Of a DNA stretch of 46,799 nt, positions 33,892 to 39,116 are shown piece after piece. Under the pieces are notes generated by a model. The model was not told the DNA's origin and did no database searches. It saw only the letters and a list, made by a program, of their open reading frames with translations. The translations under genes and the position numbers were made by a program. Every line of letters begins with the position of its first letter. The stretch's first letter is position 1. Source of the stretch: Desulfuromonadales bacterium GWC2_61_20 (GTDB lineage: Bacteria > Desulfobacterota > Desulfuromonadia > Desulfuromonadales > UBA2197); the NCBI GenBank assembly GCA_001799485.1, contig MGTO01000124.1, positions 1-46,799 of the forward strand. Direction: 5' to 3'.

Positions 33892-33959
33892 TGCCCGTTA
33901 TGGCAGTAAATGGACATCCACGGGGGATTGCCTGCATGACGCCAGCGGTGACCCTATGA
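33888..33959 (+). CDS. 23-codon minigene joining ruvA and ruvB
   Basis: This frame starts ATGATG, overlapping the ruvA stop as ATGA, and ends CTATGA, whose TGA overlaps the ruvB ATG. The peptide [23 protein letters not shown] shows no known motif. The double ATGA junction would keep ribosomes moving from ruvA to ruvB, which has no good ribosome-binding site of its own. It could be chance. Confidence 0.3.
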
Positions 33960-34975
33960 ACGAGCGGATGATCAACGCCGGACTCGCTGGCGACGACGAC
34001 CGCTTCGAGCAGTCGCTGCGTCCCCGGACCCTCGATGAATATATCGGCCAGATCAAGGCTAAAGAGAATCTGCAGGTATTCATCGATGCGGCGCGAGGGC
34101 GTCACGAGGCTCTCGACCATGTCCTCTTTTACGGCCCCCCCGGCTTGGGCAAAACCACACTCGCCAACATCATCGCTGCGGAGATGGGCGTGAACATCAA
34201 GAGTACCTCCGGGCCGGTCATCGAAAAGGCCGGGGACCTGGCTGCCGTCCTCACCAATCTTGAAGCAGGGGATGTCCTCTTTATCGACGAGATCCATCGT
34301 CTTTCGCCGGTTATCGAGGAGGTCCTCTATCCCGCCATGGAGGACTTCCAGCTCGATATCATGATCGGTCAAGGCCCGTCAGCTCGAACGATCAAGCTTG
34401 ACCTCCCCCGCTTCACCCTGGTTGGGGCCACCACTCGCGCCGGGCTCCTCTCCTCCCCCCTGCGTGACCGTTTCGGGGTGATCAGCCGCCTTGAATTCTA
34501 CACCCCGCAGGAACTGGAAATCATCGTCCGTCGCAGCGCCGGCCTGCTGAATATCCCCATCGACAGCGAGGGCGGGAACGAAATTGCTCGTCGCAGCCGG
34601 GGCACTCCACGCATCGCCAACCGACTCCTCCGCCGGGTGCGGGATTTTGCCCAGGTCAAAGGAACGGGAATCATCGATCAGGCGTTGGCCGATCTCGCCC
34701 TGGGACGGCTTGAAGTCGACCAGTGCGGTTTTGATCACATGGACCGGCGCCTACTCCTGACCATCATTGATAAGTTCGCCGGTGGACCGGTCGGTCTGGA
34801 AACCCTGGCGGCCGCCATTGGTGAGGAGAAAGATACCATCGAGGACGTCATCGAGCCCTTCCTGATGCAGCAGGGTTATCTCAACCGCACGCCACGAGGT
34901 CGGACCGCTACGTCCTTGGCCTATCGCCATTTCCAACGCTTGCCACCGGCAGGAGAGAACCCCCTCTTCGCCTAG
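33956..34975 (+). CDS. ruvB: Holliday junction helicase RuvB
   Basis: RuvB is the AAA+ motor that drives branch migration. The 339-residue protein has Walker [12 protein letters not shown], Walker [12 protein letters not shown], sensor 1 [18 protein letters not shown], the arginine finger region, sensor 2 [16 protein letters not shown] and a C-terminal winged helix ([11 protein letters not shown]). The N-terminal motif [12 protein letters not shown] is standard. It is followed within 12 bases by a GGDEF gene, so the two are probably cotranscribed. Confidence 0.97.
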
Positions 34976-34987
34976 GGGTCCACTTGT

Positions 34988-36334
34988 ATGTCAAACAGCC
35001 AGCCCAGCGCTTCAGGCACACGGTGGCAACTTAACGTCACCGAGAAGATCGTCGCCGGCTATCTTGCCCTCGCTTTCTTCAGCTTCGGCGCCCTGCTTCT
35101 GGCCCTCTTTGCCATCCACAGCCAAGCGGCAATTTCACGGGGTCTGGTCAACCGCGATTTCAAGGCGGTCGGCCTGATCCGTGACCTGCGCGGCAATCTG
35201 GCCGCTCAGGAGCGTCTGGAGCGCCAGTTCCTGATCCTGCACGATAGCGATCTCCTCTCCTTGCGACAGTCCCGATCCCAGGAGTTTTCTGCGAGCTGGA
35301 AGGCACTTGCCCTCCTCGATCTCGACGATATCCTGCCATTACACACCACAGCCGCAGCACTGATGCGGCAGCAGGAGACCCTCGGTGCATTACTCCAGGG
35401 AAATAGCCCCGCCGCAGAACTTTTGCTCGAAAAAGAGCTTCTCCCCTTACGCTCGACCCTGGATAAGGGTCTTCTCGAAGCCTCCCACAATCGGGAAGCG
35501 CTCATTGATCGTTCCTTGCAGCAACTTTACAATGAAAGCGACCGCGCCTACCGCTTCACGCTGGTCCTTCTGGTCGTCGGGGTTGCCATCGGCGGCGGCA
35601 TCGCCATCCGGGTAGTCCAAAGCATTCGTCACTCGCTGCGACGCTTGACCGAAGCTGTCCGCGATACTGCCGAAGAGCGCTTCAACCCTTCCCTGCATGA
35701 AATCGGTGACGACGAATTCGGCCGTCTGGCCGGGGAATTCGTCCAGATGGGGATCAAACTGCGCGACCTGAAACGCCAGCATTTGGACGCCAACCCGCTG
35801 ACCCATCTCCCCGGCAATCTTGCCATCGAACGCGAACTGGAGCGGCGCATCGCCAGTGGCGAACCCTTTGCCCATGTCTATATCGATCTTGACCATTTCA
35901 AAGCCTATGGCGATCGCTATGGCTACCAGAAGGGGAGCGATGTCCTGGCTTTCACCGGCGAGCTGATTCGCCGCAATGTCGAGGTCAACGGTAATCCCGC
36001 CGACCTGGTCGGCCACATCGGCGGAGACGATTATCTGGTCCTGACCACTCCGGGCTGTGCCGAGCCGATCGCTCGCAGCATCATCAAAGAATTTGACGAA
36101 GCACGAAAAACCTTCTATACCTCAGAAGACTGCGCGGATGGTCAGTATGAGGGAATCGATCGTTTTGGAGAAAAACGCACCTTTCCGCTCATGAGTATCT
36201 CCATTGCCATCATTTGCTCGGACAATGTCATTAACCCGACCCGACACTCCATCAGCGCGGAGAGTTCAAAGATGAAAGAACATCTCAAGCAGCTTCCAGG
36301 GAGTAATTATCTTGTCGATCGGCGCAAAAGATAG
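34988..36334 (+). CDS. membrane GGDEF-family protein with altered specificity residues
   Basis: The 448-residue protein has a membrane helix (about 22-44), a periplasmic helical sensor region, a second helix (about 190-211), a HAMP domain and a GGDEF domain (about 275-445). The signature loop is GGDDY (345-349) instead of GGDEF. The metal aspartate is kept at D300, but the residues equivalent to PleD N335 and D344, which read the guanine base, are G308 and S317. The inhibitory-site RxxD is NPAD. Ser at the D344 position is the mark of Hypr enzymes that make 3',3'-cGAMP; Glu-to-Asp in the loop could instead mean weak or no cyclase activity. It follows ruvB by 12 bases and overlaps the next gene. 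Confidence 0.85.
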   Translation: MSNSQPSASGTRWQLNVTEKIVAGYLALAFFSFGALLLALFAIHSQAAISRGLVNRDFKAVGLIRDLRGNLAAQERLERQFLILHDSDLLSLRQSRSQEFSASWKALALLDLDDILPLHTTAAALMRQQETLGALLQGNSPAAELLLEKELLPLRSTLDKGLLEASHNREALIDRSLQQLYNESDRAYRFTLVLLVVGVAIGGGIAIRVVQSIRHSLRRLTEAVRDTAEERFNPSLHEIGDDEFGRLAGEFVQMGIKLRDLKRQHLDANPLTHLPGNLAIERELERRIASGEPFAHVYIDLDHFKAYGDRYGYQKGSDVLAFTGELIRRNVEVNGNPADLVGHIGGDDYLVLTTPGCAEPIARSIIKEFDEARKTFYTSEDCADGQYEGIDRFGEKRTFPLMSISIAIICSDNVINPTRHSISAESSKMKEHLKQLPGSNYLVDRRKR

Positions 36335-36785: not shown

Positions 36786-39116
36786 ATGCCGATGAATAAG
36801 CAGACCCTTCGTACTTTTTGCCAACAGTTGGCTGCCTGGGCCCAAACCGCTATCGACGAGGGGAATTACCCCTACCGCAAGGTCGAACTCTTTCCATCGT
36901 TACTGAGCGCGAGCGGGGAACTCACCCCACCACTGGTTTTCTGGATCAATCGAGACAGCTTCATGGCCGGCGCGGTTGTGTTCTTCCCCGATAACGACGC
37001 GGAAGAGCATCTCACCCCAGAGCAAAATTGTACCACCGCCCTCGGCCTCGACTATTTTGTCACCTGGGGGCGCAATGAAATCATCTGCTGGAAGGTCGAG
37101 GAGGAAAAAACCACTCGCTTCCGGACCCTGTCGGCTCGCCCCCCGGCAGCAGATTCTCCCGCAGCCTATCGCCACCTCCTGCTGCAATTGCTCGGTGAAA
37201 TGCAACCCTTGTCCGCCAGGGGTCTGTTACCAGCGGAACGTCTCTCTCCCTACTATTTTGCCAATCTCTTCCGTACCGTACTCACCGCCACCCTCCCCGG
37301 TCTCCGCGACCAACTGCGCCGCAAGCGCGTTGGCGCACTAGCGCCGGAAGCTCTCCCTCCCGATGCCGCAGCCCTGAGAAAGGCGGTCACGAGTCTGTTA
37401 CGGCTGGTGGCACTGGTCGGCTTTGATGCCCTTCCGGCTTCGGTACAGCCGGAGGGGCTGGAGCAGGCGGCGCGTTACGCCCTCGAGACGCTACCGCCCG
37501 AACTGCACCCCTCCCTCGCTTTTTCCGGGAATGAGCTTCCCCTCACCCCCGCCGCCGCAATCCGTTTTCACCATTTACTGCGTCGGCTCACCCAGCTACG
37601 GATGCACTGTGATCTTGCTCGGACGGCCACGGCACTCGAACTGCTCCTGGACAGCTATCGTCACCAGCTTGGCGGGATGCCGCATCTCGCCGACTCCCCC
37701 CTGGCCGGGCCGGGCAACCTGCTGATCAACCCAACGACCACGATCTCTCCTGAGCCCCCTTTCTTTGAAAGTGCCTCGCCCCCACTCCTGGCATTTTTCT
37801 CCCTCATCCGGGCCTTCAAGAAGATGCCCGCAGCCACACAACAATTCACTTCGCCACTTTTTGTCGGCGCAGCGGTTCGTCCCCGCTCGATATGCGGCGT
37901 GCTGGGAGAGAGCCGGATCCCTCCCTTGCGGGAGCATTCCCTCCTGGCGACGTATCTGCGCATTTCGTGGCCAGGCAGACGTTGGGTTTTCCCGCCGGGA
38001 ACCCCACGCTGGGCCTGGGATTTGCTGCATCTCCTCGGTCTCGCCGAACCTGGCGCCACCATCGACGTGACCACCCCGGGGCGATGGTTAGCCAGCCCCT
38101 TCGCCACGATCCTCTGCGAAGTATGCTGCGAGCACTGCTCGCTCCAGCAGGTTCACCTAAGCAACACGGCTGAACTACGTTTTTCCCTCACCAAATCTGT
38201 CTCCACGCACGAGTCGGTCCTTCTCCTGACCCCACATGGGGAGCGTTCCCTTCCTTACAAACGGCTCCGCCAGGCCCCCGGATCGATCCTTGCCCTCGCT
38301 CTCGCTCTGCCACCCAACCTTTTCCCCCTACTCGCAGAGGGCCATCTACGCCCAGTAGCAGCAGGATTAAGTGGCGATCAGTTGGCCGGGGCCGATTTTT
38401 TTGCCACCTCGACACTGGGGCAGCTGCTGACAACCATCCTGAGCGCACATGGTGCGGCGATACCCAGGGGCCTGCGGTTCGATCCGCAAAGCTATCCTCT
38501 CCCCGATCCGCAGTTGCTTGGGCAATTGGCGACAGATTTGCCGGAGAGGACCCCACCGTCGCAAGAGACGTTCGACCAGGAAGTAAACAGCTGCCCCCCC
38601 ACCCCACCCCTGGTCCTGTCGACCGGGGCAGAGCTGTTCTTGCCCCCATCGAAGTTGGTCAACAGAGGAAAATCGTTGTCAGCCCTGATGGAGTTGCTTA
38701 TCCAAACGGTTTTTGCCGACGGCATACCACTTTTCCCGGATCACTATCTTTTCGCTTACCTGAACCCGGAGACCTTCTGCATTGATCTCCCCGAGCCTTT
38801 AGCCTTTGCTGAAACCTTCTTCGATCGCGCAACACTGACCGCGGCATCCGGTCGCCGACTCGACATAGAAGGACTGGCGACTGCCCGGGCGATCGTGCTC
38901 TGCTCCCATGGCCGCAAGCACCAGGTAAAGCTCCCCGTCGACCCAACGATTATGCGGGCAATCCTTGAGCGTTATCTGGCCGATCTGCGTCGACTCCACC
39001 ACACCCTGCGCCAGCTGGCCCACCAACACCTTGGCAGCGCGCGCCAAGCCGACAACCTTGCTACTCGGATCTGGAAGGACATGCACCTTCCCCCACCCGA
39101 CTTGTTTGACAGCTAG
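36786..39116 (+). CDS. 776-residue protein of unknown function
   Basis: I do not recognise this protein. It has no signal peptide and no clear membrane helix. It is Leu- and Pro-rich, with a globular N-terminal region (about 1-115; VFWINRDSFMAGAVVFF, YFVTWGRNEIICWKV), a long helical middle, a cysteine cluster CEVCCEHC near residue 444 that could hold zinc or iron-sulfur, and a helical C terminus (RAILERYLADLRRLHHTLRQ). The ATG has no strong ribosome-binding site; an ATG six bases on is possible. It follows the lipoprotein gene by 78 bases on the same strand and may be the last gene of the ruvCAB transcript. Codon use matches its neighbours. Confidence 0.8.
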   Translation: MPMNKQTLRTFCQQLAAWAQTAIDEGNYPYRKVELFPSLLSASGELTPPLVFWINRDSFMAGAVVFFPDNDAEEHLTPEQNCTTALGLDYFVTWGRNEIICWKVEEEKTTRFRTLSARPPAADSPAAYRHLLLQLLGEMQPLSARGLLPAERLSPYYFANLFRTVLTATLPGLRDQLRRKRVGALAPEALPPDAAALRKAVTSLLRLVALVGFDALPASVQPEGLEQAARYALETLPPELHPSLAFSGNELPLTPAAAIRFHHLLRRLTQLRMHCDLARTATALELLLDSYRHQLGGMPHLADSPLAGPGNLLINPTTTISPEPPFFESASPPLLAFFSLIRAFKKMPAATQQFTSPLFVGAAVRPRSICGVLGESRIPPLREHSLLATYLRISWPGRRWVFPPGTPRWAWDLLHLLGLAEPGATIDVTTPGRWLASPFATILCEVCCEHCSLQQVHLSNTAELRFSLTKSVSTHESVLLLTPHGERSLPYKRLRQAPGSILALALALPPNLFPLLAEGHLRPVAAGLSGDQLAGADFFATSTLGQLLTTILSAHGAAIPRGLRFDPQSYPLPDPQLLGQLATDLPERTPPSQETFDQEVNSCPPTPPLVLSTGAELFLPPSKLVNRGKSLSALMELLIQTVFADGIPLFPDHYLFAYLNPETFCIDLPEPLAFAETFFDRATLTAASGRRLDIEGLATARAIVLCSHGRKHQVKLPVDPTIMRAILERYLADLRRLHHTLRQLAHQHLGSARQADNLATRIWKDMHLPPPDLFDS

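Follow-up and report, generated by a model that had tools for sequence, protein, structure and literature searches.

A membrane HAMP-GGDDY protein encoded beside ruvB in a Desulfuromonadales bacterium belongs to the GSU1937-type Hypr group

The window analyzed here, the whole stretch of 46,799 nucleotides at positions 1 to 46,799 of contig MGTO01000124.1 from Desulfuromonadales bacterium GWC2_61_20, carries an open reading frame of 448 codons that begins 12 bp after the stop codon of ruvB. It encodes a membrane protein in which two hydrophobic segments enclose a periplasmic region and are followed by a HAMP domain and a C-terminal GGDEF-fold domain (Table 1). The Pfam GGDEF profile matches residues 270-372 weakly but significantly (43.6 bits against a cut-off of 23.8), which is the lowest score of the 21 GGDEF domains in this 79% complete genome, and the domain search found no EAL or HD-GYP partner domain in the protein. 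No RNA family match was obtained within the window. Among the 71 loci of the family alignment described below, ruvB adjoins the family member in 21, the window included; a 776-aa ORF without Pfam or NCBIfam match (window 36786-39116) adjoins the cyclase gene in 20. Both counts are lower bounds because many of the loci carry short flanks.

Table 1. Features of the ruvB-cyclase locus, in window coordinates
Feature	Position	Strand	Basis
ruvB, upstream neighbour	33956..34975	+	Pfam, neighbourhood
Membrane HAMP-GGDDY protein, 448 aa, putative cyclase of the GSU1937-type Hypr group	34988..36334	+	ORF, Pfam, alignment
Transmembrane segment 1, residues ~20-44	35045..35119	+	hydropathy
Periplasmic sensor region, divergent, mostly helical, residues ~45-187	35120..35548	+	alignment, low-confidence model
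Transmembrane segment 2, residues ~188-208	35549..35611	+	hydropathy
HAMP domain, residues 209-259	35612..35764	+	Pfam
GGDEF-fold cyclase domain, residues 262-448	35771..36331	+	Pfam, alignment, domain model, Foldseek
N277, cross-dimer position (Arg in PleD, Tyr304 in GmGacA)	35816..35818	+	alignment
G308, PleD N335 position (N/G/S across the family)	35909..35911	+	alignment
S317, PleD D344 position and position of the GacA Hypr serine	35936..35938	+	ungapped alignment
GGDDY signature loop, residues 345-349	36020..36034	+	alignment

The protein was aligned jointly with PleD and with the Geobacter metallireducens GacA domain (6d9m). D300 falls on PleD D327 with no gaps, and the original prediction, which had set D300, G308 and S317 against PleD D327, N335 and D344, agrees with this alignment; the GGDDY loop and the loss of the inhibitory RxxD motif, which reads NPAD at the PleD I-site position, were likewise as it described them. 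The Hypr serine, its Goldilocks pairing with an Asp as the third motif residue and the cross-dimer Arg/Tyr residue have been set out previously (PMC6456294, eLife 2019). The window protein has this pairing in S317 and D347, and has Asn rather than Arg as the cross-dimer residue. Two further features of Hypr enzymes are absent, namely the Asn at the PleD N335 position, which is G308 here, and the GGDE[F/Y] motif, said to be exclusive among natural Ser/Thr enzymes (PMC6456294), in place of which the window protein has GGDDY. The GGDE[F/Y]-only rule of the early definition has been overtaken because GSU1937, discussed below, is active with GGDDF. The PleD-type DxLTxLxNR motif is found as NPLTHLPGN. 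A family-specific hairpin at residues 376-400 (36113-36187) is present in neither PleD nor GacA, and its D391 and R392 are invariant in all 71 aligned sequences.

Conservation was read from an alignment of 71 sequences (the window protein, 67 full-length relatives and three matching the C-terminal half only), and since these were picked by similarity to the window protein the fractions describe its family and not GGDEF domains at large. Position 317 is Ser in 68 of 71 and Asp in three, while GGDD, D300, D302, K305, D347, D348 and K434 are invariant and the last residue of the GGDD[F/Y] motif is Tyr in 42 and Phe in 29, such that S317 and the signature loop come through the conservation test proposed for them. 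Chance or misalignment behind S317 is ruled out by the ungapped alignment taken together with this conservation. Asn occupies position 277 in 69/71, and none of the 71 homologues has an Arg at residue 336 of the I-site. Position 308 varies (N 49, G 13, S 9), and G308, the second residue singled out in the original prediction, is therefore a tolerated variant rather than a signature. Mean pairwise identity is lowest in the periplasmic region (24%), intermediate in HAMP (45%) and highest in the cyclase domain (52%). The cyclase domain also holds 28 of the 31 invariant columns, against none in the sensor; such an excess of conservation is what one would expect of an output domain that works under a range of inputs.

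Every one of the 194 sampled genomes of the class contains a match at E <= 0.001, many of them to other GGDEF proteins. Homologues that match over the full length are nevertheless common, with identities mostly of 39-50% within the order and 29-37% in the rest of the class. None of the three genomes sampled from the same family has an orthologue (best E 8e-11).

An AlphaFold2 model of the domain, built from two sequences, reached a pLDDT of 71, with domain residues 14-151 good and the last 36 poor. In Foldseek this model is GGDEF-like (best E 2.5e-7; 6d9m at E 8.3e-6), and the structural check thus supports the GGDEF fold but not the side-chain geometry. The full-length model was poor (pTM 0.38) and was used for the helical sensor only.

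The closest described system is GSU1937 of G. sulfurreducens, reported in 2022 as a transmembrane HAMP protein with the Hypr serine, a GGDDF motif and no EAL or HD-GYP domain, which contributes to cGAMP synthesis in that organism and has many homologues in Deltaproteobacteria (PMC8835794). We made the link to it via the printed deletion primers and close relatives and not via the G. sulfurreducens sequence; G. sulfurreducens PpcA as a query found no exact match in 277 genomes of the class (best 86%). Read in one frame, a GSU1937 deletion primer encodes VQKLIA and STPGSNY, which are peptides from the two ends of window-family proteins. In the Geobacter-type relative L060 the N-terminal primer site encodes VQKLIAS and differs from the primer at 3 of 21 bases (0/200 shuffles as good), and a second site 1230 bp on encodes AKPGSNY with 7 mismatches, in place and in frame though not significant as DNA. 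The upstream primer matches 744 bp ahead of this N-terminal site, with 4 bases mismatched (again 0/200 shuffles as good), the published deletion flanks being ~750 bp (PMC8835794). Loci L066 and L070 have the same primer-site order and spacing as L060. A scan of genome contigs returned one locus, L059. Searched against the window genome, the L060 protein finds the window gene with residues 2-428 of its 428 aligned (E 4.5e-77), its sole full-length match there (next 1.5e-6) and a reciprocal best hit, and the two fall in the same clade of our trees; full-length identity of the window protein to the Geobacter-type members is only 31-36%. These comparisons are strong evidence that the window gene is the orthologue of GSU1937, by way of the latter's close relatives, and its protein belongs to the GSU1937-type Hypr group, a kind already described in 2022.

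Trees were built with the trait columns 317 and 348 removed. Support of 100/100 separates the group with LPGN and GGDD motifs from canonical GGDEF domains, PleD and GacA. On the well-supported branches, Ser requires no fewer than three changes. When other classes were added, the nearer relatives outside the membrane clade were found to have Asp and the membrane clade Ser. Given this separation from GacA and the Asp of the nearer relatives, the serine most simply arose independently of GacA, which would give the Hypr serine two or more origins, with the window clade far from GacA. An origin of the window protein within the GacA clade is rejected by the trees. The Hypr reading made from the DNA in the original prediction holds for the most part: the published experiments on GSU1937 back the Hypr class, with the correction that the protein is not close to GacA.

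Further residues are found at the specificity position. Asn stands there in seven full-length HAMP-GGDDF homologues that belong to other classes of the phylum and possibly form one clade on the sequence trees (support 51/76 only). Three members of the window clade that adjoin ruvB (L086, L087 and L088) have Asp with GGDDY, in what is apparently a return to Asp.

The genome search for cGAMP riboswitches proposed at the outset yielded seven GEMM-I riboswitches (L001-L007, on G000:C65, C158, C111, C28, C66 and C75). Position 20, in a numbering that we take to be that of the Vc2 aptamer, was read by hand as A, the cGAMP type, in four (L002, L005, L006 and L007) and as G in three (L001, L003 and L004). 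The G20A switch is cited in PMC6274999. Two of the A20 riboswitches stand in tandem close to the tmRNA gene, and L002 precedes a gene for a di-haem peroxidase-like protein. The genome also encodes two other Ser-type GGDEF proteins that have the Asn and a GGDEF motif, L024 (G000:C3:27052), with a Rec-GAF-GGDEF order like GacA, and L021 (G000:C117:7557), with GAF-GGDEF, the Rec and GAF labels being read from the sequences by eye and not by profile search. cGAMP signalling in this organism is likely. The riboswitches were rejected as proof for the window protein because these two proteins can feed them.

We propose, with a probability of about 0.7, that the window protein is an active, membrane-controlled cyclase producing cGAMP and c-di-GMP. 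As an inner-membrane sensor cyclase, it would probably have the dimerisation of its cytosolic GGDEF-fold domain controlled by the periplasmic region and HAMP. Ser instead of Asp at 317 would allow the base pocket to accept adenine besides guanine, D347 would hold the metal at a matching distance and D348 would replace the catalytic Glu, with ATP and GTP most likely joined into 3',3'-cGAMP alongside some c-di-GMP. As there is no RxxD product-inhibition site, control would probably come mainly from the membrane side. For the window protein itself, activity, product and signal are inferred; the role in cGAMP synthesis in vivo and the active fusion are those of GSU1937. Deleting GSU1937 lowers a cGAMP reporter by ~25% on fumarate and ~70% on Fe(III) citrate, and in E. 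coli the GSU1937-GacA fusion F4 makes both cGAMP and c-di-GMP, the latter at a level comparable to GacA, while its GADDF mutant makes neither; GSU1937 by itself is inactive there, as are three of the four fusions (PMC8835794). This inactivity counts against the proposal, as do the modest identity to the Geobacter-type members, the reported restriction of natural Ser enzymes to GGDE[F/Y] and the Gly in place of the Asn that contacts the guanine sugar face in GacA.

The inactivity of wild-type GSU1937 in E. coli is one of several observations in keeping with a domain that is catalytically dead or nearly so, its role limited to nucleotide binding or to passing the HAMP signal on to a partner. This reading arises because the catalytic Glu is Asp, DxLTxLxNR has become NPLTHLPGN and N335 is Gly; the bottom-ranking GGDEF score in the genome would fit it, as would the GGDDF-EAL protein PA3258, which gave no increase in c-di-GMP (quoted in PMC8835794). 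We regard it as unlikely, since neither GGDD nor any of the metal and phosphate ligands varies among the 71 homologues, the protein has no EAL or HD-GYP domain as a partner, and a GSU1937 fusion with GGDDF is active where GADDF is not. The c-di-GMP made by F4 would also suit an active cyclase that produces mainly c-di-GMP, in which the serine relaxes the pocket without cGAMP being formed in the cell, and the Asp of L086-L088 alongside the same loop indicates that the GGDDY setting tolerates Asp. Retention of Ser in nearly all homologues and the fall of the cGAMP reporter in the native host on loss of GSU1937 nonetheless make this distinctly improbable. An enzyme of the GacA clade with a drifted motif would have the specificity-site Ser in common with the window protein, but it is hardly credible given the fully supported split in trees free of the trait columns, the Asp of the nearer relatives of the window clade and the presence of the true GacA-like proteins L021 and L024 elsewhere in the genome.

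The reading as a membrane-controlled cGAMP and c-di-GMP cyclase places the window protein in a group of which a single member has been tested, and that member makes cGAMP in Geobacter. What is new here is the independent origin of the serine, the Asn variants elsewhere in the phylum and the linkage to the Holliday-junction genes ruvAB. Across the class of the window genome, the serine and GGDD are kept in membrane proteins that match over their full length although their sensors diverge strongly, and given this conservation, together with the repeated origin of the serine, membrane-controlled cGAMP synthesis is probably widespread in Geobacter relatives. The Asp, Ser and Asn variants within one motif setting offer a natural series for how base choice is set. 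A speculative and rather unlikely extension is that base-promiscuous cyclases evolved a second time, independently, in the membrane LPGN/GGDD group, whose specificity site passed from Asp to Ser and on to Asn or back to Asp, and that members which also lost the N335 Asn, such as the window protein, might differ in base preference and make, for instance, mostly c-di-AMP or another purine dinucleotide.

Compared with known systems, the window protein has the fold and most catalytic ligands of PleD and the canonical diguanylate cyclases, whereas Asp344, Asn335, the cross-dimer Arg, GGEEF and the RxxD I-site are PleD's own. Four shorter proteins of the same class (316-361 aa), with the motifs NPLTRLPGN and GHIGGDDF, belong to the same domain group, but their specificity residue is Asp and none of them matches the window protein over its full length. 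With GacA (GSU1658, Gmet_1914; 6d9m), the founding Hypr GGDEF, it has in common the fold, the Ser at the D344 position, the Asp as third motif residue and a cross-dimer residue other than Arg. GacA, however, is a soluble Rec-GAF-GGDEF protein with a working I-site and a GGDEF motif, and its Asn contacts the sugar face of the guanine where the window protein has Gly; the latter is a membrane HAMP-GGDDY protein of another clade that lacks the I-site. GSU1937 is the nearest likeness, as both are transmembrane HAMP proteins with the Hypr serine, GGDD and no other catalytic domain; the window protein differs in having GGDDY instead of GGDDF, in adjoining ruvAB and, relative to most GSU1937-type relatives, in having G308 in place of Asn.
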